Shown: positions 9,273 through 32,850, counted from the first letter of the stretch. The stretch is DNA of 34,368 bases from Chloroflexota bacterium (GCA_022562155.1 JADFPV010000028.1:1-34368), one strand, 5' to 3'. Notes: generated by a model from the letters alone, not told the origin. Translations and numbers: made by a program.

Positions 9273-9328
9273 TCCTGGTCAGGAGATCGTAAGCGGGAGG
9301 CGGGCTAGCTAGAAGGGGGATGTGGCGC
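9273..9328 (-). repeat. 56-bp dispersed repeat, copy A
   Basis: Reverse complement GCGCCACATCCCCCTTCTAGCTAGCCCGCCTCCCGCTTACGATCTCCTGACCAGGA aligns without gaps to 27093-27148 and 32795-32850. Confidence 0.85.
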
Positions 9329-15121: not shown

Positions 15122-15162
15122 GCAGAAGCGAAGCTTCTGAAAAGCTGAACCGTAGGTTCAGC
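15122..15162. repeat. Double-hairpin repeat, copy a
   Basis: CAGAAGC-GAA-GCTTCTG then GCTGAACC-GTA-GGTTCAGC. Confidence 0.7.
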
Positions 15163-17143
15163 CCGATACACCTTCTATGAAACGAGTGTGCGCGTCTTCC
15201 AATGCCTTCGGCATACTCGGGAACTGGGCCAGGTACTCGTTGCGGCGGGGGATTTCACTTTGCCATAGCTCCGCGTCGTAGGTGAGCAGCTTCGCGAGCG
15301 TCTCGTCCTTAATGGACAGCCCGTCACGATTCAGCGCCTTCGGCGTCGGGATGACACCTGCCGGCGTGACGGTCACCAGTCCGTCAGCCTCAGCCTTAGC
15401 AAGCTCGCCGGCTTCACGCTTCGTCGGCTGTTCGATCGCCCAGGCGAGGGCCCGCAGGTTCTCGGTGTAGCCGGGCCACATGAAGCGCCCATCATCGTCC
15501 TTCGCGAACCAGTTGACGTGGAAGAAGCCCGGCGCATTGTCGCCGGCTCGTTCCATCAGTGACAGCCAGTCTTGGAAGAACAGCTGCTCAGGGTACGAGT
15601 AGAACCCCATCATGGCCATCGGGTCGGCGCGAAAGACGACCGGCGCATCGATAGCCGCCGTTGTCTCGACGCCCATGACCGAGCCGTCGTAGACGCCCGT
15701 TTGCACGTCGGGCAGCTGGCGGATCAGTGGCTCGCGCGGGCTGCTCACCCGCCCACCGAAGATCACACCGCTGATCGGCACACCCTTGGCCACGTCCCAC
15801 TCCGGGGAGATGTTTGGGATACTCGTCAACGGCACCGTGAAGCGGCTGTTCTTCTGAGCCCACGGATGCGCCTTGCTCTTCTGCTCATCAGCAAGGCGAT
15901 CGCTGATGCGCTTGCCTTGCCAGTCGATCCAGCCGGTGACGTCCTCTGGGTAGTCGGGCGTCATCCCCTCCCACCAGATTTCGTTGGTCTCCTCATGCAG
16001 AGCGACGTTCGTGAAAATCGTGCCGCTACCCGCCTGGATGGCCGTCATCGCAGCAGGGTTCGTTGCACTGTTAGTCCCAGGAACGACGCCGAAGACACCG
16101 AATTCGGGGTTCATCCCGTAGACGCGGCCGTCGTCGCCGACGTACAGCCAGACGATGTCATCGCCCAGGAAGTGAACCTTGTACTTGTCTCGCAGCGCCT
16201 CCGGCGCTTCGGTCATCACCAGGTTCGTCTTGCCCGATGCGCTGGGAAATCCGACGATCAGATACTTGATTTCTCCGGTTTCTAAGTTTTCGATCCCCAT
16301 CAGCCCCATCTGGTCAACCAGCCAGCCATTCTCGTGCGCATCGAAGGAAGCCAGGCGCAGACCGTGCGCAATCTTCGCCAGCAGCGCGTTGCCTCCGTAG
16401 GCCGACCCGAAATGGAGGATCTCCCGATCGCGCGCAAGCGTCGCGAAGTAGCGATCATCGTCGGCGCTCGTCGGCGTCGGCTTCGGTGAACGCTGCAGGT
16501 TGTCCAGGTCTCCAGCCACGTGGGTACCGCGGACGAAGTCAGCGCTATCGCCAAGCGCGTCCCACGCGACCTTACCGACGCGGGCCATGCGGATCATGCT
16601 CAGTGCCACGTAGCGGCTGTCCGTCAATTCAATTCCAATGCCCCACTTCGCGAGGGGCGAGTCTACCGAGTTCGCCATCACATACGGGATGACGTACATC
16701 GTCTTACCGGCGGATGCTCCCTTCATCTGCGCGGCGACTTCGGCGCGCAGCTCAGAGGCGGGTCGCCAGTTGTTGAACCGGCCCGTGTCGGCCTCGTCGT
16801 CCGTTCCGACGTATGTCCGCTCCTCGGTCCGGGCCGTGTCCTTCGGATGCGACCGCGCGTAGTACGTGCCGTTCCCGAGATCGATCAGCTCGCCCGCCGC
16901 GACCGCCTCCTTGAGGAGCCGGTCATCATCGGCGGCATCGACTAGCTCGACGGCATCTACCCCGGTCCAGGCGGCGCGTTCTGCAACCCACGCTTTCACG
17001 GTCGCGTTGGGAATGGGCAAGCCATCGACGAGGTTGCTCGCATGAGCGACCGCGTCGGCCCCGCCCCGCATCTCGGGAAGAGCGCCCTCTACTTCTGAGT
17101 CAGTCGTTCGGTCTTGCTCTTCGTTTTGAAACATAACGTTCAC
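15158..17143 (-). CDS. pckG: Phosphoenolpyruvate carboxykinase (GTP)
   Basis: GTP-PEPCK motifs: GKTMYVIPYVMA, IVGFPSASGKTNLVMTEAPEAL, LGDDIVWL, GMNPEFGVFGVVPGTN, FHVNWFAKDDDGRFMWPGYTENLRAL. Confidence 0.93.
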   Translation of the reverse strand: MNVMFQNEEQDRTTDSEVEGALPEMRGGADAVAHASNLVDGLPIPNATVKAWVAERAAWTGVDAVELVDAADDDRLLKEAVAAGELIDLGNGTYYARSHPKDTARTEERTYVGTDDEADTGRFNNWRPASELRAEVAAQMKGASAGKTMYVIPYVMANSVDSPLAKWGIGIELTDSRYVALSMIRMARVGKVAWDALGDSADFVRGTHVAGDLDNLQRSPKPTPTSADDDRYFATLARDREILHFGSAYGGNALLAKIAHGLRLASFDAHENGWLVDQMGLMGIENLETGEIKYLIVGFPSASGKTNLVMTEAPEALRDKYKVHFLGDDIVWLYVGDDGRVYGMNPEFGVFGVVPGTNSATNPAAMTAIQAGSGTIFTNVALHEETNEIWWEGMTPDYPEDVTGWIDWQGKRISDRLADEQKSKAHPWAQKNSRFTVPLTSIPNISPEWDVAKGVPISGVIFGGRVSSPREPLIRQLPDVQTGVYDGSVMGVETTAAIDAPVVFRADPMAMMGFYSYPEQLFFQDWLSLMERAGDNAPGFFHVNWFAKDDDGRFMWPGYTENLRALAWAIEQPTKREAGELAKAEADGLVTVTPAGVIPTPKALNRDGLSIKDETLAKLLTYDAELWQSEIPRRNEYLAQFPSMPKALEDAHTRFIEGVSG

Positions 17144-17308
17144 CCCCCGCTAGCCACCTTCCAGCCCGAAAACTCTAACAAGCCACGGCTAACGGGCAAG
17201 GGCCAAGCAGATGGAGACTCGCCGCCGCCCACCGGTAGCCAACGTTACTGAGGTGCTGTAGGCTACGGGCGACGGAACAGCGCATCGAACCAACCAGAGG
17301 AGTTAGCC

Positions 17309-17650
17309 TTGGTTCAGGAGCTGCCCGAAGGCACCGTTACGGTTCTCTTCACCGACGTCGTCGGCTCGACGGAACTGACGAATCGGCTCGGTGACGAGCG
17401 CGCCCGCGAGGTGCTCGGCGCCTGCGACGACCTTGTGCGCGGCCAGATCGAACGACATCGCGGCCGCGAAGTGAAGGGCACGGGCGACGGCCTCATGGTG
17501 GCGTTCACCTCGGCGAGGGGGGCCATCGCCTGCGCCGTCGATATCCAGCGAGCGATGGCAGAGCGCGCCCGCAGCGAACCAGATCGGGCCGTGGGCGTGA
17601 AGATCGGCATGCCCAAGCACATCGAGATGGCTAAAACGATGCTGGACTAG
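17309..17650 (+). CDS. Truncated stand-alone class III nucleotide cyclase homology domain
   Basis: GTVTVLFTDVVGSTELTNRLGDERAR...EVKGTGDGLMVAF, ending VKIGMPKHIEMAKTMLD* before the catalytic second half. TTG start with upstream AGAGGAG. Confidence 0.7.
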   Translation: MVQELPEGTVTVLFTDVVGSTELTNRLGDERAREVLGACDDLVRGQIERHRGREVKGTGDGLMVAFTSARGAIACAVDIQRAMAERARSEPDRAVGVKIGMPKHIEMAKTMLD

Positions 17651-17698
17651 CAGGAGCGCGTAGGGGCGTTGCTCGCCGCGCCCCTTGTGTCTCCCTCC

Positions 17699-18439
17699 CT
17701 ACGTAGCCAACCGCTGGATCGAGAACCCCACGCCCGAAAGCGCCGTCGCCATCAGCAGCGCGATGACGATCCGACGGAAGATCGCCGCATCGATTCTCGA
17801 TGCCAGCCAGTTCCCGGACGTGTTGCCGATGAGAACCGCCGGCAGCCCGACGAGCGCCAGCAGCACCGCATCGCGCGTAACGACTCCTGCGATGAAAAAG
17901 ATCACCACTGTGACAATGCTGCCGGCCAGGAGGTACAGCGCCATCACGCCGCGGAACTCGTCGCGCTCGTGGCCCCGTCCCACCAGATAGCTGACGATCG
18001 GCGGGCCGGACATGCTCGTGCTCGTCGCAAGCACACCGGAGAGCGCGCCGACGCCAAGCTCGGTCCGCAGACCGCGCGCCGTGATGCGCATCCCCGCCGC
18101 CAGCGCGCCGGCCATCGTCACCGCGGCCAGCCCCACGACGAGACGCAGGCCATCCTCCGGCACACGCAGCAGCACCAGCAAGCCGACCGGCATCCCGAGC
18201 CAGCTCCCCACCATCAGCGTGCCGACAGTCCGCCAATGGACATCGGACCAGACGCGGAACGCCAGCAGCACCTCCGACGCCAGCGCCAGCAGCGAGACGA
18301 CCACAACCGTGTCCTTCACGTCGAGCACCAGCACCAGGAACGGCACCGAGATCAGCGCGAACCCGAACGCCGTCACCCCCTGCGCCAGGCTTGCTAGCAG
18401 CGCAACGCCGATCACCACAGACGCGGTCTCAACAGCCAT
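17699..18439 (-). CDS. TSUP (TauE/SafE) family permease
   Basis: Eight or so TM helices; AQGVTAFGFALISVPFLV; SGVLATSTSMSGPPIVSYLV. Confidence 0.82.
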   Translation of the reverse strand: MAVETASVVIGVALLASLAQGVTAFGFALISVPFLVLVLDVKDTVVVVSLLALASEVLLAFRVWSDVHWRTVGTLMVGSWLGMPVGLLVLLRVPEDGLRLVVGLAAVTMAGALAAGMRITARGLRTELGVGALSGVLATSTSMSGPPIVSYLVGRGHERDEFRGVMALYLLAGSIVTVVIFFIAGVVTRDAVLLALVGLPAVLIGNTSGNWLASRIDAAIFRRIVIALLMATALSGVGFSIQRLAT

Positions 18440-18491
18440 GCACGTGAGTATGGAGGAACGTAAGGAGATGGGCTATGGGGCCGTTCAGCGT

Positions 18492-18530
18492 GCAGTTGCG
18501 CAGCAACTGCCAAGCCCGTCGCAGACGGGC
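18492..18530. repeat. Double-hairpin repeat, copy b
   Basis: GCAGTTGC-GCA-GCAACTGC, CAA, GCCCGTC-GCA-GACGGGC. Confidence 0.8.
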
Positions 18531-18640
18531 CGTCAGCCGCCCGTCGAAGATGGGCCGGGATCCCCACAGGGGAACAAAACCTGCCCGCCTTTCGTCTGAA
18601 TATAGAACGGGTACAATGCAACCGCGTCCACAAGCACAAG

Positions 18641-18886
18641 ATGGAGGCCCTCATGGAGTGGGATTTAATCGTATGGATACTACTGGTCGTGTTCGGCGCC
18701 GCCTCGATTGTCGGCGGCATCGTCACCTATCGAGGCAGCAAGAGCACCGGTGGTCGGGCGGCCGGCGCGGCCTTAGCTGCCGCCGGGATCGCCATGTGGG
18801 CCATCGTTCTCGTCACAGTGCCCGTGTCTAGCTCGAGCGGCGACACGCCCTCCCCGATTATCGCGGGTGAGGTACTCGCCGACTAG
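18641..18886 (+). CDS. Small two-TM membrane protein
   Basis: Two hydrophobic segments in MEALMEWDLIVWILLVVFGAASIVGGIV...AAGIAMWAIVLVTVPV. Confidence 0.5.
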   Translation: MEALMEWDLIVWILLVVFGAASIVGGIVTYRGSKSTGGRAAGAALAAAGIAMWAIVLVTVPVSSSSGDTPSPIIAGEVLAD

Positions 18887-18889
18887 ACA

Positions 18890-19300
18890 CTACTCGCCCA
18901 ACCTCACCGCAGGTCCACCGTACACACTACTCTTCTGTTGCCACTGAAAGAGTTCAATTACGTTACCAGAGGGGTCTTCGCAGAGAATCTGCTTGCGCCC
19001 CTGCTGATTCACAATTTCGTTCTTGAAGTGGACGCCGTCGTCCTTGAGCTTCGAGACATAGGATTCCAGATCGTCGACAACCAGGACAAATCTGGACCAG
19101 CCTCCCGGACTGGGTATAGCGCCATCAGACATCGGCCTCGCCGCCGACGCGTTTGGCCCCGCAAGCCATAGCGTCAAATCGTCACGTACCACCATCGCAA
19201 ACGCAGTGCCGTACTGCTGTTCGACTTCAAAGCCAAGCTTTGAGACATAGAAGGCAACCGCCTCTGACACGTCATCCACGATGTATCTAACTTGTGCCAT
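18890..19300 (-). CDS. VOC (glyoxalase/bleomycin-resistance) family protein
   Basis: VRYIVDDVSEAVAFYVSKLGFEV...FVLVVDDLESYVSKLKDDGV...ILCEDPSGNVIELFQW. Confidence 0.85.
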   Translation of the reverse strand: MAQVRYIVDDVSEAVAFYVSKLGFEVEQQYGTAFAMVVRDDLTLWLAGPNASAARPMSDGAIPSPGGWSRFVLVVDDLESYVSKLKDDGVHFKNEIVNQQGRKQILCEDPSGNVIELFQWQQKSSVYGGPAVRLGE

Positions 19301-19359
19301 GTTTCGCTCCTTTAGTGCGCGTATCCGAGATCTAGCATCCCCATAGCCTGGCCTTCCCG

Positions 19360-19884
19360 CTACGTATTCCGGCGACGACGCAGCTCGGCAATCGCGTCCT
19401 GGCTAGAGGTCGAAGCCATCGCGGGAAGCGTACCAATCGGGAACCAGCGGACCTCGTCGATCAAGTCTGCGGGCCGCGGCTCGCCAGCCCGCAAACTACA
19501 CAGATAGACGAGCGTGACGATGGCCATTCCCCGAAACACACCTTCATAGGCGCCAAGCAGTTCTCCCACCTCAACCTCGATGTCCATCTCGCGACGGCAT
19601 TCCCGTCGCAGCGCGGGTTCGATCATGTCCGTAGCGTTGAGGAAGTTGCCCGGTAGGTCCCACCCACTCCCGTCCGACTGCCTGCCAAGCAGCACCTCGG
19701 AGTCGCGCCCGCTTCCTCGCGTTATCAGGGCATCGACGCAGGGCTTGCGATTCTGCCACACGACGAATCCGCAGCTGTCGCAAGTGGGGTGCTCGAGGCG
19801 AGCATCCCCGGCGGGGCGAAGCGCTAGCTTGCCGGCACATCGAGGGCAGTAGCGAAGCTCAGCTACTTGTGGATCGTTACTCAC
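19360..19884 (-). CDS. NUDIX-family protein with N-terminal zinc ribbon; divergent Nudix box
   Basis: CPRCAGKL...CDSCGFVVWQNRKP; WDLPGNFLNATDMIEPALRRECRREMDIEVEVGELLGAYEGVF. Confidence 0.8.
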   Translation of the reverse strand: MSNDPQVAELRYCPRCAGKLALRPAGDARLEHPTCDSCGFVVWQNRKPCVDALITRGSGRDSEVLLGRQSDGSGWDLPGNFLNATDMIEPALRRECRREMDIEVEVGELLGAYEGVFRGMAIVTLVYLCSLRAGEPRPADLIDEVRWFPIGTLPAMASTSSQDAIAELRRRRNT

Positions 19885-20008
19885 GGCTGGCTCACCAGGC
19901 TAAACGTAGCACAGCCCTAGCCAGCGGATTCGCCCTGATCGCGGTCCACGCCATGTAGGGGCGGCGCTTGCCCCGCCCTCGCCAGCACACGCGGCCAGCG
20001 GCAGGCCA

Positions 20009-20046
20009 GCAGATTCGCGGAATCTGCCAAGCCGTGGTAGACGGGC
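20009..20046. repeat. Double-hairpin repeat, copy c (second hairpin imperfect)
   Basis: GCAGATTC-GCG-GAATCTGC, CAA, GCCGTGGTAGACGGGC. Confidence 0.7.
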
Positions 20047-20048
20047 CG

Positions 20049-20705
20049 TTACTGGAAGACCGGATCGACCCACACCAGCAGCACGCCGCCGCCCTGGGGA
20101 GCGTCTGCCAGCGCCACGCCGACCGCGTCGCCCTCGGCGAGCGACGCCAGTTCGACGCCGTAGCCGGTGCCGGGCACTGGCTGTGCCTCGATCGTCCCGC
20201 CGTCGTCCGTCGTGAAGGTGACAGAGTTCGTCGACGCCTCCTGGAAGCGCATGAGTATCTGTACGTTGGGCGCCCAGACCACCACATCGCCGCCTAGGTC
20301 GGTGCGCACCTCATAGACCGCGTCGCCCAGCGCGAGTTCAATCCGATATCCCTCGACGAGCGCCTCCGTGCAGGCCTGCCCGGCGCGCCCGACCTCCAGG
20401 CAGCCGTTAGACCACGTCACCGCCTCGACCGACGTCACCGTGATCGCCGCAGCATCGCCAACAGGCCCGAGCCACGTCGCGAGCGCATCGATCGCAGCGT
20501 TGGTTGCCGCTCCGAGACCGGGCGTTGGAGTCGACGCCGCAGCCAGAGGCGTTGGCGTGTCGCCCGCAACCCCCGTCGCGATAGGCGGCGAAGTCTCCGT
20601 CGGTGTCAGTACACCCGGCCCATCGTCACCGTTGCCGCCACAGGCTGCTACGAGAAGGCCAACGCCCAGCATCAATACAACGGCCGTATTAAGTCTCATG
20701 GGCAT
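20049..20705 (-). CDS. Secreted lipoprotein of unknown function
   Basis: Lipobox LLVAACGG, Thr/Pro-rich linker, folded C-terminal region. Confidence 0.7.
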   Translation of the reverse strand: MPMRLNTAVVLMLGVGLLVAACGGNGDDGPGVLTPTETSPPIATGVAGDTPTPLAAASTPTPGLGAATNAAIDALATWLGPVGDAAAITVTSVEAVTWSNGCLEVGRAGQACTEALVEGYRIELALGDAVYEVRTDLGGDVVVWAPNVQILMRFQEASTNSVTFTTDDGGTIEAQPVPGTGYGVELASLAEGDAVGVALADAPQGGGVLLVWVDPVFQ

Positions 20706-20746
20706 CTTCTCCCCTTGCTAATTGGCTACTGGGCCGACAGTTGCCC

Positions 20747-20790
20747 GCAGTCGCCGTAGGCGACCTGCCAAGCTCAGCGAAAGGAGCCGT
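20747..20790. repeat. Double-hairpin repeat, copy d (degenerate)
   Basis: GCAGTCGCC-GTA-GGCGACcTGC, CAA, GCTCAGCGAAAGGAGCC, then CCGTGGTCGGA flank shared with copy f. Confidence 0.6.
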
Positions 20791-20848
20791 GGTCGGAGTT
20801 TAGCAGGCCGGCCGGCCCTCGTTCGCTGCGCTCAAGCGCTCAGCCCTA

Positions 20849-21280
20849 CTACGTAGCAAACTGGCCCCAGGTCACCGTCCGTTCGACGGATATCTTGATC
20901 ACAGGCCGGCCTTCCAGAGGCAGCTCCTCGTACTGCTCATACTTTTCCTCGAGTAGGCCGATTGCCCGCTGATACTCAGCTCCTTGTTTGATCAGTTCCG
21001 CGCTTCCCCGGAGTTGGATGTAGCCCAAACGTTGCCAGTCTTCGTCGTAGTGATCGACAAGCACCTGCACATGGGGGTTGGCTTCGATGCTGCGCACACG
21101 TCGCAGCCGCTCAGGCGGCACCGATTTCGGTTTCGAATCGATGGGCGTGTACAGAATCCCCTGGTCATACACAAACACGATCGGCACGATGTGGGGCCGC
21201 CCTTGCTCGTCGACCGTCCCCAGCCGAGCGACCCGCTGCTCGCTCAAGAACCGTCTCGTCGACAAGGCTAGTTCTGCCAT
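20849..21280 (-). CDS. Pyridoxamine-5'-phosphate oxidase-fold, probably F420-dependent (PPOX class)
   Basis: MAELALSTRRFLSEQRVARLGTVDEQGRPHIVPIVFVYDQGILYTPIDSKPKS...VTWGQF. Confidence 0.82.
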   Translation of the reverse strand: MAELALSTRRFLSEQRVARLGTVDEQGRPHIVPIVFVYDQGILYTPIDSKPKSVPPERLRRVRSIEANPHVQVLVDHYDEDWQRLGYIQLRGSAELIKQGAEYQRAIGLLEEKYEQYEELPLEGRPVIKISVERTVTWGQFAT

Positions 21281-21331
21281 ATGACCCAGGTTAGACCATC
21301 TGGCAACTTCACCGCAGCCGGGCCGCGGCCA

Positions 21332-21370
21332 GCAGTTGCGGAGCAACTGCCAAGCCCGCCGAAGGCGGGC
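21332..21370. repeat. Double-hairpin repeat, copy f
   Basis: GCAGTTGC-GGA-GCAACTGC, CAA, GCCCGCC-GAA-GGCGGGC. Confidence 0.8.
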
Positions 21371-21394
21371 CGTGGTCGGAATGTACACCTTCAG

Positions 21395-21550
21395 CTAGCG
21401 AACAAACAAGAGCAGCGCGATCCCTCCCGCAAGCGCCACACATGCGAACGCCAAAAACACCACGGCATCATCGGGCGGATAGTGGACGCTTGCGGCGAGA
21501 AGGAAGAACAGAGACACCACGAATAGGACAATTGCGAACGCAACGATCAT
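21395..21550 (-). CDS. Small two-TM membrane protein
   Basis: MIVAFAIVLFVVSLFFLLAASVHYPPDDAVVFLAFACVALAGGIALLLFVR. Confidence 0.45.
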   Translation of the reverse strand: MIVAFAIVLFVVSLFFLLAASVHYPPDDAVVFLAFACVALAGGIALLLFVR

Positions 21551-21578
21551 GCTCGCCACCTCCTCCGTGGTCCGGCCA

Positions 21579-21636
21579 GCAGTTGCGCAGCAACTGCAAA
21601 GCTGAGCCAAGCTCAGCCGCTGACCCGCAGGTCAGC
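21579..21636. repeat. Triple-hairpin repeat, copy g
   Basis: GCAGTTGC-GCA-GCAACTGC, AAA, GCTGAGC-CAA-GCTCAGC, C, GCTGACC-CGCA-GGTCAGC. Confidence 0.8.
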
Positions 21637-21683
21637 CGGAGTCTAGCACGCTGTGCTTACGGGAGTGGCCCTGCCAGGTTTTG

Positions 21684-22637
21684 CTAGCTTGGGTCGACGC
21701 CCCTGGTTACTTTGTAGTTTGTCGGGGTCATTTTCCAGCCGTCTTTTTTCAGCTCTGAGGCTAGGTCGACAATGCTCCTGGGGTAGTTGGCTGCTCTAGG
21801 TGCTGCGTACTCAACTTCCGTGTCGACCTCAAGGTTGATGTCGCCCCAGAATTGCAGTTCGTACTCTTTGCCGAACTCCAAAGCCTTCTTCCACTCGTGC
21901 GCACTGAGGTAAAAGACCGTTTCGCTGCCTCTGTGACCCTTGACCTCGATTCGGCGCACCGGTTTCGTTGAGGTGTCTTCAATGTCGTAACCAAACGCAT
22001 CGGAGATTCTGGACACCCACGCGATTGCGCTCGGATTCGCAGTGAGGCTCCGCTCTAAGCTGTAGCTGTAAAGCTCTGCGCGCTCTCCTATCGTCTTGCG
22101 CTCGACAAGATAGTCTTGGGGGCTCGCTTCCTCCGGCAGCAGTGCCTTGATGCTCGCTAGTTCCTCAACGAGGAAGGCGGGAACCAAGATCTCAGGGGCT
22201 ACCTCTACCTCGGTCCACCATTCGAGTATGCCCACCAGCTGAGGCGCTTCTCGTCGGCCATATGCCTTCGAAACGATAAGCTCCTGATTGTTGTTAATCG
22301 AGCCACTCTCGAGTAGTCTGCGCGCCTGGTGATGGAAATAGCCACCGCGTATGAGCGTTAGGCCCATGGGCTTCATGTCCCCTTTGGCGCAAGATCCTGC
22401 CAGGTTCCTGCCAGCCTTCGTAAGGGCGACAGACTGGCCCTTGATGTCAGCCAGCTGAGTTTCGACAAGTAGGCTGACAACCTCAACGATCTCGTCGAGC
22501 GACCCCCCGGCTTTTCTACGAATCGATCTCCTTGCTTCAGGCTCCTGCCAACGCTCGGACTTCTGAGCGAGCACAACGAGCGCAGTTGCCGCCTTTCTGA
22601 GTCGGGCTCTCGTAAGCCACTCCGCTTCGAATGGCAT
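21684..22637 (-). CDS. DUF3883-type, putative PD-(D/E)xK nuclease with N-terminal wHTH-like region
   Basis: DAFGYDIEDTSTKPVRRIEVKGHRGSETVFYLSAHEWKKALEFGKEYELQFWG; EVKG core, DUF3883-like. Confidence 0.75.
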   Translation of the reverse strand: MPFEAEWLTRARLRKAATALVVLAQKSERWQEPEARRSIRRKAGGSLDEIVEVVSLLVETQLADIKGQSVALTKAGRNLAGSCAKGDMKPMGLTLIRGGYFHHQARRLLESGSINNNQELIVSKAYGRREAPQLVGILEWWTEVEVAPEILVPAFLVEELASIKALLPEEASPQDYLVERKTIGERAELYSYSLERSLTANPSAIAWVSRISDAFGYDIEDTSTKPVRRIEVKGHRGSETVFYLSAHEWKKALEFGKEYELQFWGDINLEVDTEVEYAAPRAANYPRSIVDLASELKKDGWKMTPTNYKVTRGVDPS

Positions 22638-22642
22638 CCGGT

Positions 22643-24595
22643 CTAAGGGTCCTCGCCTAATAGGAACCGCAACAATGTCTTCAAGTCTTCTTCATCTCCT
22701 TCGGCTGCCACTAGTGGGTCCTCAGGCTGTCCCACCGGCTGGAGTTCGGCACCCTCTAGCAGGTCCAACATCCGCGCCTCTTTTTGTTGGAGCGACATGT
22801 CGACCAGTTCATCGATCGTGGGTCGGCCATCATGCTCAGCAATGAGAATGTGTATCTCAACCTGGGCATCCGGCGGAAGGCCCAGGCGATGTACCCGATC
22901 GATCGATTGAAGAAAGAGGGCTGCGTCGTAAGTTCTATCTAGATATATGGCCGTATGGCATGTCGTGTGAAGCGAGATCGACTCAGAGCATGATGCTGGA
23001 TTCGCAACGAGGACTGCTGCTCCAGGTAAAGTCAAGAAGCGCTCTATCAAGGTCTCCCGAGTGTCAGTAAGGGCGGCTTCGAACTTGCTGGTCTCTTTGT
23101 CATCGCTAGGGTCATCACCGACCTTTACTCGACCGTCTATCTGAAAACAGGGAACACCCAGTTCAGAGCGGACCAGCTTCGTGAACTGGTCGAGGTTCGT
23201 TAGGAAGTTGCTCCACACCACGACCTTGCGGTTGTCCTCGACTTTCGACCTGACCAGCTCCAGGCCAGCCTGGGACTTAGAAGGAACTTCGTCCCGGCCG
23301 AAAGTAGCTAGGCGTTCCATCAAAGTGCGACTCTCTGATGTAAATTCCGGAACCCCGTAGTGCTGGTCGTTATGGTTGAGCAGGTCCGGGTTCGTTGCAG
23401 CCTGAATTAGTCGAATTAGACGGCCTCGTCGCAATGCCTCCAACTTCTCTCGATACGCTGACGCGCCCTCAACCTTCTTGCGAAAGTTGCTCTCTATCAG
23501 CTCATAGATTTCCGCCTCGGTTCCCTGGAGCTGGACGGGATGACGGAACGTCTCATAAGGTTGGAGGCCTAGTGCTTCTTTCGGCGTACGCGAAACGAAT
23601 GGAAGCACGTCGCCAAGGAGTGAATCAAAGTCTCGGGAAACGCGGACAGCGAAGTCATCCGGCGGGCCGGTGAGTTCCCGGTCAGGCCAAAGGATGTTCA
23701 ACTGGCTGTACAAATCGCGGCCACCTTGGGGCATCGGCGTCCCTGACAAGATCATTCTTACCCTGGCCGAACGAGCTATCTCCATTAGTGCCGGTGCCCA
23801 GAATCCTCCTCTGAATCGCTTCACTCGATGGGATTCGTCGACCACCAGCATGACCCTAAGCCGCTGACACATTTCGATTAGTTCAGCTCGGTCCGTGGCC
23901 GCGGTCGCATAACCAAGGAGTATCAGATCCCCAGCCTTGGTCTCGGAATACGCTCGTGTGCGGTGGTCACGGTCGCCACGAATACGTCGAACGCGCAGCT
24001 TGTCTCGTAGGGCTGCCGCCGCTTCCTTCTCCCACGGGCGAAAGGAGGACAGTGGTCCAACAACAACTATCGCATCGATGGTGTCTGATGCGAGGTGAAC
24101 TGCTGCGACGGATAGAGCTGTAGCCGTTTTGCCAGAACCAGGGACAGAAAAGTTCGCCGCGTTTACCACTGTGAGTGCGTGGGCCAAGCCAGAGAGCTGA
24201 TACTCCTTGAGTTCTCGTTCAGCTTCATTCCACCCAAAGTCACGCAGTTGGCTGCTGACGTCTTCAGGATTGATTGTCTGATTTCCCTCGCGGAGGGCGA
24301 CTGCCCGCTCCCTGGATCGTGTGAAGCTCTTTCGGCGCTCTAGTGCTCGTCCTACTAGTTCATTGACCCGCTCGTCGTTATGTGCCTTCCACCCCTGGCG
24401 CTCAAGGAACGTGCTTATCTGAACTACGATCTGTGACGTGCTCCGCCCCCGCCGCGGGCAGATCCACCCATCTTCAGTTTGGACGCCACCAAGAATCGTC
24501 CGGAAGAACATCCTGGCTCGGCGGTTCTGAAGAAGGTCTGGCGCTATTACGACAACGTTATCGCCGTCGACCCTTAGTTCAACATCTGGATCCAT
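22643..24595 (-). CDS. SNF2-type superfamily 2 helicase/translocase
   Basis: LKEYQLSGLAHAL, ANFSVPGSGKTATAL (motif I), VVDESHRVKRF (motif II), ILSGTPMPQG (motif III), SIDRVHRLGLPPDAQVEIHIL (motif VI). Confidence 0.88.
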   Translation of the reverse strand: MDPDVELRVDGDNVVVIAPDLLQNRRARMFFRTILGGVQTEDGWICPRRGRSTSQIVVQISTFLERQGWKAHNDERVNELVGRALERRKSFTRSRERAVALREGNQTINPEDVSSQLRDFGWNEAERELKEYQLSGLAHALTVVNAANFSVPGSGKTATALSVAAVHLASDTIDAIVVVGPLSSFRPWEKEAAAALRDKLRVRRIRGDRDHRTRAYSETKAGDLILLGYATAATDRAELIEMCQRLRVMLVVDESHRVKRFRGGFWAPALMEIARSARVRMILSGTPMPQGGRDLYSQLNILWPDRELTGPPDDFAVRVSRDFDSLLGDVLPFVSRTPKEALGLQPYETFRHPVQLQGTEAEIYELIESNFRKKVEGASAYREKLEALRRGRLIRLIQAATNPDLLNHNDQHYGVPEFTSESRTLMERLATFGRDEVPSKSQAGLELVRSKVEDNRKVVVWSNFLTNLDQFTKLVRSELGVPCFQIDGRVKVGDDPSDDKETSKFEAALTDTRETLIERFLTLPGAAVLVANPASCSESISLHTTCHTAIYLDRTYDAALFLQSIDRVHRLGLPPDAQVEIHILIAEHDGRPTIDELVDMSLQQKEARMLDLLEGAELQPVGQPEDPLVAAEGDEEDLKTLLRFLLGEDP

Positions 24596-24608
24596 GTCAC
24601 TTGAGGCG

Positions 24609-25915
24609 TTACGCCAGATGCTCTTTAGCGGCCTCGGCCCATTCCACCACCTCGCGTACGGCGTTCTTTACTTCGGTAGCATGGGGTCCTATCAGAGCTT
24701 CTTGTAGCTCAGCTACTTGAACTGTAGCCAGCCGACTTCGCGCCCCCCTTATCGCGTCGCGGACGTCCAAATCCGGCGCTCGGAACGCGTCGATGGCGTT
24801 CTTGATCTCTTTCCTCACCTTCTCCGACGGATAGTGCTCCAGTGACGGGCCGGGCGGTTCTTCGTCTTCCTCATCCTCTTCTGAGATCGCTACTGAAAGG
24901 TCGGGGTTCTGAAGCTCAGGTGGCAGATCGTCTTCTTGCTCAGCCTCGATGTCCACGATCTTCTTGGCCAGCTCCTCATAGGCTTCCCGGTCTTCCAAGA
25001 AGATCTTGCGTAACATTCGAATGTCGCCGTGAGGATTGCCTGCCTGAATAGCTGCGAAGGCAAGCTGCAGCATGTCGGCCGCATCATCCGGGTAGTCTCC
25101 TTGGACCTTCGCCATCAATCTTCCTACATCGCGGAAGCGCTCTACTTGACGCAGCAATAGGTGATACTGTCCAGGCTTACCCAGGTCGTCCAGATAAGCA
25201 TCTATATACCGGATGGCGCGCAGTTGAACTACCGCGTAGGCCTTGTCGCCTCCTGCAGCGAGTTGTAAAGCACCGGCGACTTCCTCGAGGCTATCATCAT
25301 CAGCCCATTCGATCTCTTCTACGTTTGCCGCGTCCCTTAGGGCAAGCAACAGGTTGATGTCCGTGTATCGGACTTTGAGATTCTCTGTTAGTTGCTCGCG
25401 CTGTTCCATTCTGAACAGGTCGTCTTCATCTATATCATCTGGCTCGAGGATAATTGCCTCAATCCACTCAAGTCCGTCATATCCACCTTCGATCTGGAGG
25501 CGCTTAATCAGAGCCAGACGTCGGTTTCCGTTCCGTACGGTTCCGTCGGGTCGAATCCAGAAAGGGGTCTCCTGCCTACGCCGCAACCAATCGTCCTTCA
25601 AAGCCTCCGTGTCCTTCGAAGGCCGCCCTACGACGCGATTCCCCTCGAGATCTAGACCGGTGTCTAGAAGGATTGCGATCACTGATGCCTCGTCATCAGG
25701 GTTGTTCTCTGGGTCGAGTGAGCGTTCAAGCTTCGACTCCACGAGGACCTTGTCCGCCGCAAATCTGCGATTGTCTACGTTTAGGAGAAGGGCTTCAACC
25801 GGAACCCTGTAAACCGGCTCCTCCCGCCATTGGCCCTTGGCCCAGAGCCGAAACGTACGGCCGGTCTCTTCCTTCTTCTCGGTTAGTAGGCTTGTTCGTT
25901 CAGCTGCGTCCATTC
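24609..25915 (-). CDS. ParB/sulfiredoxin-fold N-terminal domain protein with long acidic C-terminal region
   Basis: YRVPVEALLLNVDNRRF...FWIRPDGTVRNGNRRLALIKRLQ...LEWIEAIILEPDDIDEDDLFRMEQREQLTENLKVRYTDIN. GAGGAG SD before ATG at 25915. Confidence 0.75.
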
Positions 25916-26001
25916 GGAACTCCTCAATCTGGGGTATGACGTGAGCGCCTGATCCAAGCGGCCGCCCGACCGCGCCCCTTCGAGAGCGCCTATCAGCAGA
26001 G

Positions 26002-26036
26002 CATAACGCCATGCGGGACTAATGGACAACGTTATG
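26002..26036. promoter_or_regulatory. Dyad CATAACG-N21-CGTTATG in the divergent intergenic region
   Basis: Perfect 7-bp inverted arms. Confidence 0.4.
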
Positions 26037-26114
26037 TGTTCAAGTATTAATGCTGGGCTTGCATGCGGATCAGGAGAGACTTACCATGGCGCTAATGAGC
26101 AAAGGCATAAGCCC

Positions 26115-26143
26115 TTGACGAGATTGGAGATTCCCCTTACGAT
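26115..26143 (+). promoter_or_regulatory. Sigma70-like promoter for the methyltransferase
   Basis: TTGACG - 17 nt - TACGAT. Confidence 0.5.
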
Positions 26144-26194
26144 GACCTCGAACATGAGCCACACTCACACCACAGGTTCCGGGCGCCAGGAGCC

Positions 26195-27061
26195 ATGAAA
26201 GAGAAGAGACGCAACGGCTCCAAAGCCATTGCGCCCTTCAAAAACAAGATACTGCAAGGGGACTGCTTGGACATTCTGGCGGGACTGCCCAGGGAGAGTG
26301 TCAACCTCATTGTGACGTCGCCTCCTTATGCAGACAACCGAAAGAGCAGCTATGAAGGCGTTCCGATTGACGGCTACGTTGACTGGTTCCTTGAGCGGTC
26401 AGCACAGTTCCAAAGGGTCCTCCGTTCCGATGGGTCATTCATCCTCAATGTTAAGGAGCGAACAGTAAAAGGAGAGAAGGGGACGTACATCTTGGAGCTC
26501 GTTCTGGCGCTGAAAGACCAAGGCTGGCGATGGACCGAAGAATACATATGGCACAAAAAGAATAGTTATCCAGGCAAGTGGCCCAACAGGTTCCGAGATG
26601 CGTGGGAAAGATGCCTCCACTTCACGAAGCAAAAGAGTTTCAAGATGTTTCAAGAATCAGTCATGGTCCCAACTGGTGACTGGGCTAAAGGCCGACTGAG
26701 TAGGCTAAGCCAAGTGGATAGACTACGGGCGGAGTCCAGCGCGCAAAACGGGTTCGCCAAGAACGTATCGAATTGGGTTGGTCGAGACGCCGCATATCCA
26801 ACAAACGTTCTTCACCTCGCCACTGAATGCAAGAACCGTCAGCACAGTGCGCCCTTCCCGGTCTCGTTGCCTGCGTGGTTCATTAAGCTGTTCACAGAAG
26901 ACGGCGACATTGTCCTTGATCCTTTTATTGGTGCTGGGACAACCGCCGTGGCATGCCATCAGCTTGATCGGCAATTCATCGGTATTGACTCTAATCCTTC
27001 GTATGTCGCGCTTGCCCGGTCGGCGGTGGCCAACCTCAAGAGACACCCCGTTCAGCGGTAG
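26195..27061 (+). CDS. Site-specific DNA methyltransferase (TSPPY, N4-cytosine/N6-adenine type)
   Basis: ILQGDCLDILAGLPRESVNLIVTSPPYADNR (motif IV) and DIVLDPFIGAGTTAVACHQLDRQFIGIDSNPSYV (motif I). Confidence 0.9.
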   Translation: MKEKRRNGSKAIAPFKNKILQGDCLDILAGLPRESVNLIVTSPPYADNRKSSYEGVPIDGYVDWFLERSAQFQRVLRSDGSFILNVKERTVKGEKGTYILELVLALKDQGWRWTEEYIWHKKNSYPGKWPNRFRDAWERCLHFTKQKSFKMFQESVMVPTGDWAKGRLSRLSQVDRLRAESSAQNGFAKNVSNWVGRDAAYPTNVLHLATECKNRQHSAPFPVSLPAWFIKLFTEDGDIVLDPFIGAGTTAVACHQLDRQFIGIDSNPSYVALARSAVANLKRHPVQR

Positions 27062-27092
27062 ATCTTCGGATGTCGGCCACGGCGGCTCCCCC

Positions 27093-27148
27093 ATGCCACA
27101 TCCCCCTCTGAGCTAACCCGCCTCCCGCGTACGATCTCCTGATCAGGA
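27093..27148 (+). repeat. 56-bp dispersed repeat, copy B
   Basis: ATGCCACATCCCCCTCTGAGCTAACCCGCCTCCCGCGTACGATCTCCTGATCAGGA. Confidence 0.85.
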
Positions 27149-27163
27149 AGTAGCAGGAAGATC

Positions 27164-27601
27164 GTGATGCCGGAGACACCAGCGACCAGCGACAAGGGAC
27201 CAGCGTCCAGCCAACCAGCGTCCAGCAGTCCAGCATCAAGCATCCAGCGTCCAGCCTCCAAACGAGGCGGCCGGCGTCCCGGCGCGGGCGCGCCCAAAGG
27301 CAACATGAACGCCCTGAAATCGGGGCGCTACTCAACCCGCGTCCGCGCCCTCCGAGGCGCCATGGGGGCCATCCCCCGCACTGCCGGCCTCCTCGTCCAG
27401 CTCACCGGCCGCGACCGGCGCAAAATGGAACTCCTCGCCTATGGCCTGCAGTTCTACGCGGAAATCCTGTTCCATATGGCGCGCGGAGGTTCACTCGAAG
27501 ACCTCAACAACATCCGCGTCCGCAACCGCGTCATCTCCGCCATCCCTGTCAGAGACACCAAGCAGATGGTCAGCACAATCCAGGACGCCTTCAATGCCTA
27601 A
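27164..27601 (+). CDS. Small basic protein with RRPGAGAPKGNMNALKSGRYS motif; unknown function
   Basis: Complete ORF. N-terminus encoded by CCAGC-rich minisatellite. PKGNxNALKxGxYS motif. Confidence 0.6.
   Translation: MMPETPATSDKGPASSQPASSSPASSIQRPASKRGGRRPGAGAPKGNMNALKSGRYSTRVRALRGAMGAIPRTAGLLVQLTGRDRRKMELLAYGLQFYAEILFHMARGGSLEDLNNIRVRNRVISAIPVRDTKQMVSTIQDAFNA
27179..27258 (+). repeat. CCAGCGTCCAGC-type minisatellite inside the CDS
   Basis: Three exact CCAGCGTCCAGC copies (27200, 27215, 27244) plus partial units. Confidence 0.7.
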
Positions 27602-27630
27602 CACATCGAACGTCGAACCTCCGAAGCCTT

Positions 27631-27665
27631 GCAGTCGTCGCAACGACTGCCAAGCTCAGCTCCGT
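27631..27665. repeat. Double-hairpin repeat, copy h (first hairpin clear)
   Basis: GCAGTCGT-CGCA-ACGACTGC, CAA, GCTCAGC... Confidence 0.65.
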
Positions 27666-27676
27666 CCTGAGGTCCC

Positions 27677-27824
27677 CCCTGAGCACGTCGAAGGGCCTGT
27701 CGCCTGCCCTGAGCGGAGCCGAAGGGAAGGGCGAAGCTCAGCCGTGTTCGATGCCTAGCGCCACCACCGTACACCTCCCCTCTCCCTGTATGGGAGAGGC
27801 ATGTCCTGAGCGAATTCGAAAGGG
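27677..27824. repeat. Cluster of CCTGAGC-nnn-TCGAAGG-type intergenic repeats
   Basis: CCCTGAGCACGTCGAAGGG (27677), CCCTGAGCGGAGCCGAAGGG (27707), TCCTGAGCGAATTCGAAAGGG (27804). Confidence 0.7.
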
Positions 27825-29430: not shown

Positions 29431-29943
29431 CTATGTCCAGAACTCGGTTCTCTCGGTGTAACTTGCGACGTCGACGATTCGGCGCATCCCCCCAGCCTTA
29501 TCGAACGTTGCAAGGATGAGATTGTACTCCACGGCTGTACTAGCTATCCACAGATCATTCTCCTGAATTCCCAGCTCCTTGCCGGTGGTAGAGTCGACTA
29601 GGTCCTCCACATACTTTTCCTTCAGCCTGCCTCGACGCCCTCTTGTCGCGTAGCGTTGGAACAGGCCAGCACGGATTCGACCAAACGTCTGGGCGGTGTG
29701 CTTTTCGATGGGAAGAATGACGTATTCATCCATTGCGGCCCTATATAGCCTGTGACGTTCAGCGTCAATGGCAGGCGACACACCAAGACCGTACTCGCCT
29801 TCTCCTATTGAGACTGATGAAACATAGATGAGAGCAGCGCTGCTGGCCAACCGGCTCCTCACAGACTCGTGTATCGGAGACTGGGCGTCCCACACGGCGC
29901 TGGCAATATTGGTGTCCAGAAGGTAGCCGTCAGAAGGCGGCAC
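29431..29943 (-). CDS. PIN-domain ribonuclease (VapC-like toxin)
   Basis: YLLDTNIASAVW; GIQENDLWIASTAVEYNLILATFDKAGGM. Confidence 0.8.
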   Translation of the reverse strand: MPPSDGYLLDTNIASAVWDAQSPIHESVRSRLASSAALIYVSSVSIGEGEYGLGVSPAIDAERHRLYRAAMDEYVILPIEKHTAQTFGRIRAGLFQRYATRGRRGRLKEKYVEDLVDSTTGKELGIQENDLWIASTAVEYNLILATFDKAGGMRRIVDVASYTERTEFWT

Positions 29944-29951
29944 AGATGCCT

Positions 29952-32480
29952 CTAGTCAATCTCTGCCAGAGCTTCAGAGATGGCAGCGTCATCAACGATC
30001 GGTAGGCGTTGGAGGGTCGATGTCGCGGTTGCTCGACTCAACTCATCGGAGATGTAGCGGAATAGCGGTAGTGATGGCTTGAATTCCTGTGGAAAGTACT
30101 CGGTGAAGTCCACTGGCCCCGGGCGCGACTGACCCATGAAGAAGTCGAGAATGCGGCGCTCAACACGTGGTGAGAAGTCATACGCCCTTAGTACTTCTGC
30201 ATCGATCTGCAAAAGCAGATCTCTGCCCATTTCCATTGAAGTGATTGATGGGGCTCGAGCACCGCGCCACGCCACATATCGCCGGACGAGCGATGACACG
30301 GCCTGTGACTGCCTGGCGCTCATATTAGGTATGGGAAGTTCTTTCAGCGTTGAGATTCTAATGTCTCGTTGAGCCTCTTCCGTCGCAATGAAGGCGTTTG
30401 CAACGGGACCGTTGAGTATCGCGGCAAGAACTTCTATCGGTAACTCACTGTTTGGCCAAATGGCGTGGAAGTTCTGGTAACAAACGAGACCTTCTGAATC
30501 CGATGCGGCGGTGATTCTCCAATGTCCTCTGCTCCGTCTCCTAGCGTTGACGATAACCTTCGGATCGTCCCAGGGCCACTTGTATGCACCCGTCCGCTGG
30601 AACTCCGGGGAGACGTTGAGATACTCGGTGGCTGACACTCTATAGGGCTCAAGACTGTCTTCGACCGTGTGTAAGCCGCGAGCAAAATTCGACCGGGGCC
30701 GATCTGCGATTAGTTGTTCTGGATTGGTCCTCAGCGGGATTGAGAATTCGATGCCTCGATGGATCTCAGCCAGCTCACCCAGTCGAGGCATTCTTGTTGT
30801 GCCCTTCCATACATCCTGAAGCTGGCTGATCCAAATCTGGTCGTTGTCCAGTTCGGAGTAAACGGAATCGGCTTGAACCTCGCGTTGATACGAGGGGCGA
30901 TGCCACAAATAGAAGTCCTGAAGACCGTCGTCGTAGACCTCAGCTGCGGCCAGCCGAGATGTTGGCTTCCCAAGATCGTAAGCCAGGAGCAACGCCACGT
31001 CAGCCTCAGAATGCCGGAAGACGCTGTCAGGTAGAGCTACAACCTCCAACGACCCGTAAGTCTCTCTAAGCCGAGCCCTGCTTTCCTTGTAACCGAGCCC
31101 CGTCAGTGCAACTCTGGGAAGCACCAGGCCCATCATCGCCGGTGGTGACTGTAGGAGTCGTCGCAACAACTCGGCTGGCTTGTGTGCAGACGCGACAGGG
31201 GCGCTTCGCCGTTCTTCTTGGCTGAAGTCTTCGAAAGGCGGGTTGCTAAGAACGATGCTCGACCTGCGCAGCTGCTGATCGAATGTCGGCGACGAAAAGG
31301 CATCGCCGCGATCGAGCCGCCATCCATCGGGGTTCGGGTAGTCGGCCAGCATGAGTGAGAGCATGCCCACTTCCCTCGCAAAGTCATCGAGCTCAAGCCC
31401 AGCGAGCATCTGGACGAAGTAAGCATGCCTCTCATCGGACGTCATGGTAGGCGCCAGTAGATCGCGTAACCGCCTCATTGCAGCTACTAGGAAGACCGCG
31501 TGACCGGAGAAGGGTTCGAATACTTGTCGCTTGTCCTCGGGCAGGCTTTCAATCGGAAGGTGACTGACGATGTACTCGGCAATTTCTGGGGGAGTCCCAT
31601 GGATCCCAAGTGATTGCCTTGCCTCTGTGCTTACCAAGGTGTTCTCATACACAAAGGCTAGAGCGTCCACAGAAAGGTTCTGAAAATGGAAGCTATCCCG
31701 GATCTTGGCCCAGACTAACTCCTGCACATGCCGGTCATCGAGTACGTGCTCACGTTCTGCCTGATGAAAGTAGAAGTTCTCAACTGACCTAATGGCCTCT
31801 TCGGGGTCATCGTCGAGCCAGGTTCCCGGATGCTTGCGATCTGCGAGGATCTTCGCCGCCAACAGTCTGAAGAGAAGCCGGAAGAGCGCAGCGTAGGTCT
31901 TTGCGTCAACGGCTTGAGATCCTCCCAGCGTATTGACGGCCAAGGAGACCGTCTGGCGAAGGAGTCCATCAAGTTTCGTTCGTACCTCTCGCTCAAGCAG
32001 CGGGAGGAGACCTAAGTCGAAGAAGTCAAGCTGGGCGGTGTCGTCCGCGTTGCGTGCTGTCTTCGCGCTAAGCATGCGTCCTGGGAGCCAATCCTGACGG
32101 TGGCTCTTGAAGAGCGCTGGAATGGCTCGCATTGGAACTTGGTCAAGCAGTACAGGGGCCCCGTGACTCGTCATTTTCCAGCGGAATAAGTGTTGTTCCC
32201 GGACCTCAAAGATTTGCGGTGCGCCCAGTGACCTGTATCGCGCTACAAGAGGTTCACCCCTGGTCCCGTTGGCTGCGACAACCCCAAAGCACGCGTTTCG
32301 ATACGAAGGTGGTTCTTGCGCGAAAGCAGCCAACGGTATGGAATCTACTTCGCGGTCGCCCTGGACAATCTGAGCGAAAGAGTAGTCCTCCTGAAGCAGC
32401 TCATCCACATAGCCGATCCGTCTTAGCTCTTGCTTCAACAGATCGAACCGCTCGGTACGCGGGTCAGTCACGGGCGTCAC
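29952..32480 (-). CDS. Large N6-adenine DNA methylase (NPPF), type I/IIG-like, with C-terminal putative target-recognition region
   Basis: RQVFEPFSGHAVFLVAAMRRLRDLL (divergent motif I), SSIVLSNPPFEDFSQEERR (motif IV), C-terminal PRLGELAEIHRGIEFSIP...LKELPIPNMS. Confidence 0.8.
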   Translation of the reverse strand: MTPVTDPRTERFDLLKQELRRIGYVDELLQEDYSFAQIVQGDREVDSIPLAAFAQEPPSYRNACFGVVAANGTRGEPLVARYRSLGAPQIFEVREQHLFRWKMTSHGAPVLLDQVPMRAIPALFKSHRQDWLPGRMLSAKTARNADDTAQLDFFDLGLLPLLEREVRTKLDGLLRQTVSLAVNTLGGSQAVDAKTYAALFRLLFRLLAAKILADRKHPGTWLDDDPEEAIRSVENFYFHQAEREHVLDDRHVQELVWAKIRDSFHFQNLSVDALAFVYENTLVSTEARQSLGIHGTPPEIAEYIVSHLPIESLPEDKRQVFEPFSGHAVFLVAAMRRLRDLLAPTMTSDERHAYFVQMLAGLELDDFAREVGMLSLMLADYPNPDGWRLDRGDAFSSPTFDQQLRRSSIVLSNPPFEDFSQEERRSAPVASAHKPAELLRRLLQSPPAMMGLVLPRVALTGLGYKESRARLRETYGSLEVVALPDSVFRHSEADVALLLAYDLGKPTSRLAAAEVYDDGLQDFYLWHRPSYQREVQADSVYSELDNDQIWISQLQDVWKGTTRMPRLGELAEIHRGIEFSIPLRTNPEQLIADRPRSNFARGLHTVEDSLEPYRVSATEYLNVSPEFQRTGAYKWPWDDPKVIVNARRRSRGHWRITAASDSEGLVCYQNFHAIWPNSELPIEVLAAILNGPVANAFIATEEAQRDIRISTLKELPIPNMSARQSQAVSSLVRRYVAWRGARAPSITSMEMGRDLLLQIDAEVLRAYDFSPRVERRILDFFMGQSRPGPVDFTEYFPQEFKPSLPLFRYISDELSRATATSTLQRLPIVDDAAISEALAEID

Positions 32481-32794: not shown

Positions 32795-32850
32795 GTGCCA
32801 AATCCCCCTCTGCGCTAACCCGCCTCCCGCGTACGATCTTGTGATCGAGG
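32795..32850 (+). repeat. 56-bp dispersed repeat, copy C
   Basis: GTGCCAAATCCCCCTCTGCGCTAACCCGCCTCCCGCGTACGATCTTGTGATCGAGG. Confidence 0.85.

Follow-up and report, generated by a model that had tools for sequence, protein, structure and literature searches.

What is a short double hairpin doing at place after place in one contig, with stems that change sequence and yet stay paired? The window, by which we mean the whole 34,368-nucleotide stretch analysed here (contig C123 of a Chloroflexota draft genome of 2.77 Mb in 134 contigs, G000), prompted a sequence-only reading that described at least seven intergenic copies of such a structure between 15122 and 27665 and proposed that they form a dispersed family with compensatory stem changes. 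That observation is real. The structure looks like a DNA element of about 50 bases, made of two hairpins in a row and present in one Chloroflexota genus at about fifty to more than 100 copies per genome; it resembles repetitive extragenic palindromes (REPs) and appears to be a separate type.

Copies in the window

All seven copies were found where they had been placed, all on the + strand. Five are clear or nearly so, and the two at 20747 and 27631 are degraded and weak. They are listed below with two associated hairpin parts; E values are from a covariance model (CM) search.

15123..15162 (+), copy A: CAGAAGC-GAA-GCTTCTG, linker AAAA, GCTGAACC-GTA-GGTTCAGC; own-genome CM E 1.2e-12
18492..18530 (+), copy B: GCAGTTGC-GCA-GCAACTGC, CAA, GCCCGTC-GCA-GACGGGC; CM E 1.4e-16
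20009..20046 (+), copy C: GCAGATTC-GCG-GAATCTGC, CAA, second hairpin imperfect; CM E 4.2e-13
20747..20787 (+), copy D, degraded: hairpin 1 GCAGTCGCCGTAGGCGACCTGC bulged, CAA, hairpin 2 poor; CM E 4.2e-4
21332..21370 (+), copy E: GCAGTTGC-GGA-GCAACTGC, CAA, GCCCGCC-GAA-GGCGGGC; CM E 5.3e-18
21579..21617 (+), copy F: GCAGTTGC-GCA-GCAACTGC, AAA, GCTGAGC-CAA-GCTCAGC; CM E 3.9e-17
21619..21636 (+), third hairpin beside copy F: GCTGACC-CGCA-GGTCAGC, an extra module of the second-hairpin type; from a hairpin scan
27631..27660 (+), copy G, interrupted: GCAGTCGT-CGCA-ACGACTGC, CAA, GCTCAGC; CM E 0.02
27736..27742 (+), GCTCAGC, then CGTG: perhaps the far arm of copy G in a displaced position, judging from sequence only

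The stem sequences quoted in the earlier reading are correct. The plan that it gave for all copies holds as a general layout and is less strict than was stated: copy A (15123) has AAAA as its linker, copy F (21579) has AAA, and hairpin 2 of copy C (20009) is not perfectly paired. Copy A sits at the 3' end of a PEPCK gene (15158-17143, minus strand). Copy B lies upstream of a TauE/SafE gene, and its orthologous copy in a congener (G002) has five compensated pair positions. The second hairpin of copy G is apparently split by about 75 bp holding another repeat, of the type CCTGAGC..GTCGAAGG (window 27661-27735).

Other features of the window deserve a record of their own. A repeat of about 50 bp (TGCCACATCCCCCTCTGAGCTAACCCGCCTCCCGCGTACGATCT...) occurs at 9273-9326 (-), 27095-27148 (+), and 32797-32844 (+) with 81-92% identity, and letters resembling it also adjoin a double-hairpin copy at another locus (L180). 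In addition, 21684-27061 and 29431-32480 encode an SNF2-like helicase, a probable DNA methyltransferase, and an N6-methylase/TaqI_C-type protein, likely a restriction-modification or defence island.

Anatomy of the element

The consensus reads RGCCA-[8-bp stem, GNA loop]-CAA-[7-8-bp stem, GNA loop]-CGT. Hairpin 1 is commonly GCAGTTGC or GCAGAAGC (8 bp) and hairpin 2 commonly GCTGACC or GCTGAACC. RGCCA forms the 5' border, and GCCA or CCAA precedes each of the two hairpins; at the 3' border, hairpin 2 is followed by C (99%), then G and T, with C at +7 (70%). In both hairpins GNA is the usual loop sequence, read on the same strand. DNA triloops of the form C-GNA-G have special stability. Folding energies calculated as DNA do not differ between the two strands.

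Adjacent hairpins of this kind are more frequent than chance would provide, since 631 kb of stretches around copies hold 70 CAA-linked adjacent perfect hairpin pairs, against 11 pairs in a Markov-shuffled control with all linker lengths from 0 to 6 taken together. Linker lengths of 4-6 were considered as extra peaks and rejected, being sub-frames of the same copies.

The unit also varies. There is a solo second-hairpin variant and a nested one, in which a hairpin 2-like module lies within hairpin 1, in some copies preceded by CAA. Tandem copies stand 52 bp apart in L253, and at L235:4925-5000 a double hairpin appears to sit within the loop of a GTAG palindrome.

Distribution in the genus and the class

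A covariance model (R2) built from 11 copies bore out a dispersed structural family on the genome scale. It gave 116 matches at E<=10 in the window's own genome (best E 1.4e-18), and at E<=0.001 it gave 78 there, 47 in the congener G001, and about 94 in G002; the own-genome totals are approximate because only part of the first-look candidates was scored. No family copy was found in 80 kb of other G002 contigs.

Outside the genus the signal nearly disappears. Three other genera of the same family (G003-G005) had no R2 match at E<=1e-3, and two of the remaining genomes compared had weak single matches. A survey of 295 genomes of the class at E<=1e-5 returned only the three congeners and single contigs in two further genomes, G172 and G284. 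The G172 contig is probably a misbinned contig of a congener, as 1.1 kb of it shows about 90% identity to G000; the G284 contig matched none of the sequences compared. An exact 16-mer scan of GTDB genomes yielded, among the matches listed, mostly unrelated sequence (Vibrio repeats, assorted genes), and the flanks mark only L066 and L067 (SZUA-185) among those matches as the element. The near-absence of R2 matches outside the three congeners shows that the double hairpin is essentially restricted to its genus.

Covariation and what keeps the stems paired

Pairing was assessed in an alignment of 150 copies from the three genomes. Because that alignment was made to fit the structure, and its copies came from a model in which pairing raises the score, all counts from it lean towards pairing, including the 98.1% of stem pair cells with standard pairs. 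Two-sided changes occur at 13 of the 15 pairs, and 317 cells have them against 72.9 in shuffles. The covariation score is 0.432, compared with at most 0.066 for slid partners; sliding thus removes the signal.

Orthologous sites were matched through reciprocal best genes and in a few cases through DNA flanks; 15 comparisons gave 49 compensated, 12 broken, and 163 unchanged paired positions. These comparisons are not all independent (three come from one gene resembling that of ribosomal protein L19, and one G001 copy was used twice), and structure-aware detection favours paired copies, so that decayed copies are under-counted and retained ones are over-represented among the orthologous pairs. 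Some of the ortholog changes may also reflect one copy having replaced another at its site. Compensatory stem change, as first read from the window, extends to the whole genome and to orthologous sites in congeners.

The further step taken in that reading, that structure is under selection or is the substrate of transposition, is not forced by the data. Pairing is indeed kept, but template switching on DNA generates perfect hairpins and restores them with no help from selection (PMC8794818, PMC3820800), and it can maintain them and invert their spacers (PMC8794818, PMC3820800, PMC8604942). Covariation is therefore no proof of selection when taken alone. Six of 72 first hairpins have a TTC loop, the exact reverse complement of GAA, which is consistent with template switching, and it is probable that perfect pairing is kept partly by template-switch repair.

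How far can this mechanism be taken? On a purely mutational account, an ancestral double hairpin was duplicated together with neighbouring sequence and stayed paired only through template-switch repair, with no transposition at all. The inverted loops and the known mechanism speak for it, as do the 107-bp tandem units of L223, which hold the hairpin and the 3' end of a neighbouring dockerin-like gene. Copies nevertheless lie beside many unrelated genes, with little similarity beyond borders of -5 to +7, so plain segmental duplication is insufficient, and we consider the account rather improbable.

DNA or RNA

A second alternative is a role in host gene expression as RNA, with the hairpins acting as bidirectional 3'-end, stability, or processing structures under selection in transcripts. 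Placement offers it some support. A simple home-made gene caller put 129 of the 134 copies with classifiable context between genes, and convergent gene pairs enclose copies at about 2.4 times the density, a figure drawn from stretches around copies and so biased to copy-rich regions. Several copies directly follow stop codons; at L223:2371-2526, L176, L177, and L254, for instance, they stand just behind or near the stop of multi-copy genes with dockerin-like C-terminal repeats. Some positions are conserved across the three genomes.

The stems themselves tell against such a role. G-U accounts for about 1% of all pairs, and G·U and A·C mismatches have similar frequencies: the 150-copy alignment has 22 G-T and 16 A-C among about 2170 pairs, and G000 copies counted separately have 13 and 16. 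Orientation relative to the nearest gene is not consistent, and 29 of the 129 intergenic copies lie between divergent genes. The sequence-only reading had allowed that the copies might be independent terminators sharing no linker; instead, the linker is common to the copies and no T-tract was found after them. No double hairpin is among the terminator-like matches, which do not exceed shuffles, and Rfam covariance models had no match in the window at gathering score. Together, the near equality of G·U and A·C, the intergenic placement, the inconsistent orientation, and the lack of T-tracts, terminator-like matches, and Rfam matches favour a double hairpin that acts as DNA, not RNA. We therefore hold the RNA role to be unlikely.

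The resident RAYT and its own palindromes

Could the element be a REP proper, the single-strand substrate of a resident RAYT (TnpA-REP), the partner that the earlier reading had suggested looking for? In size, copy number, and intergenic placement it is like REPs, and Pfam Y1_Tnp finds a match in every genome of the genus (one in G000, one in G001, four in G002). The G000 protein also matches REP_Tyr_transpos (NF047646) at 70 bits, below the 80-bit cut-off. However, Y1_Tnp matches occur as well in most related genera that are without the element, and the element has no GTAG tag.

The RAYT and Y1 loci bear tagged palindromes of a different sequence. In G000 the RAYT-like gene (L175:1105-1779) has a GTAG REP palindrome, GTAGGGGCGGTTCGCGAACCGCCC, within its coding sequence, where it encodes RDARRGGSRTALTD. 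The Y1 loci L281 and L282 (G001 and G002) have inverted GTAG palindromes, and L302 has a similar tagged pair; all are unlike the double hairpin. Another palindrome family, GTAGGGGCG..CGCCC, is also dispersed in the genus (window 17660, 19955, and many loci); its stems vary and stay complementary, and it matches the palindrome within the G000 RAYT gene. Searching five Y1 loci (L175, L281, L282, L292, L302) with R2 at E<=1 revealed no double hairpin within about 1.5 kb. Since L175, L281, L282, and L302 bear palindromes of the GTAG kind and none of the five loci holds a double hairpin, the RAYT of the genus belongs with another, GTAG-tagged repeat family. A RAYT partnership is thus not supported, and that the double hairpin is a REP proper seems to us very doubtful.

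Turnover and the proposed explanation

Copies come and go between species. At the 3' end of the PEPCK gene the window has the full element, G002 a single hairpin, and G001 no hairpin; near the place related to copy E, G002 has only the solo second-hairpin module; and at other comparable sites the element is in one species only. These presences and absences were seen only against diverged flanks, with no exact empty site with clean borders among them. On the other hand, the element stands 37 nt before the gene resembling that of ribosomal protein L19 in all three genomes, and conservation of position at several genes (L19-like, TauE, and others) could equally reflect a host function.

On balance, we think it probable that the double hairpin is a non-autonomous, REP-like interspersed palindromic DNA element, about 50 bp long, that is restricted to a single genus and has spread within it. 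Single-stranded copies, for example at the replication fork, would fold into two short hairpins. Spread may depend on a nuclease or transposase that is specific for single strands and acts in trans, or on template switching at the fork; the element's mobility is inferred from genus restriction and from presence and absence at sites. Against this reading, the search for a mobilising enzyme in these incomplete draft genomes found none, and no multi-copy transposase cluster adjoins copies; the largest cluster of proteins encoded beside them includes some with dockerin-like C-terminal repeats. Pairing would be kept by template-switch repair of imperfect arms together with selection for copies still able to spread. 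Any host role, such as the 3'-end or supercoiling effects proposed for REPs, would be secondary.

A bolder proposal would make the element a near-minimal two-ended single-strand transposon. Hairpin 1 would be its left end and hairpin 2 its right end, each with a 5' GCCA(A) guide motif, and a putative HUH or other single-stranded DNA enzyme of the genus would mobilise it in trans, the stems drifting yet staying perfect through frequent copying. We regard this proposal as unlikely.

Whatever the mechanism, three genomes with some 200 copies between them, and with many orthologous sites, offer natural material for asking whether hairpin pairing is maintained through selection, through a transposition cycle, or through template-switch repair. 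It is also worth remembering that strong covariation with hardly any G-U can arise from DNA and is not proof of a functional RNA. Should a mobiliser be found, REP-like systems would be extended beyond the GTAG/RAYT type.

Comparison with known systems

The preferred reading, a REP-like DNA element of one genus, is best judged against systems already described. GTAG-tagged repeats and other REPs are short intergenic palindromes in high copy, lineage-specific, with variable stems that keep their complementarity and frequent dimers and clusters (PMC3733652, PMC2817692). The double hairpin resembles them in all of this, and it has what REPs are recognised by: palindromes of 20-50 nt, high copy, and mostly intergenic placement. 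It differs in having RGCCA, not GTAG or a variant, directly 5', and in its distance from the RAYTs of the genus, which go with the GTAG family. Its unit is two unequal hairpins joined head-to-tail by CAA, whereas in most genomes GTAG repeats are described as lacking a head-to-tail arrangement or having it less often than expected (PMC3733652).

REPINs and BIMEs likewise have two palindromes per unit and lie between genes (PMC3116915), but theirs are inverted REPs, while here two different hairpins share one orientation and stand 3 nt apart. In IS200/IS605 elements and the MITEs derived from them, both ends form a hairpin preceded on its 5' side by a short motif, as in REPs, and the GCCA(A) before each of our hairpins is comparable. 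Unlike those MITEs, the double hairpin has no cargo between its hairpins, and no resident transposase with matching ends was found in the incomplete draft genomes. The double-hairpin elements of fungal and algal mitochondria (Paquin et al. 2000, as cited in PMC5910586) are organellar, and we liken them to ours by architecture, not by sequence; as that citation presents them, they too are tandem hairpins, dispersed and thought to be mobile.
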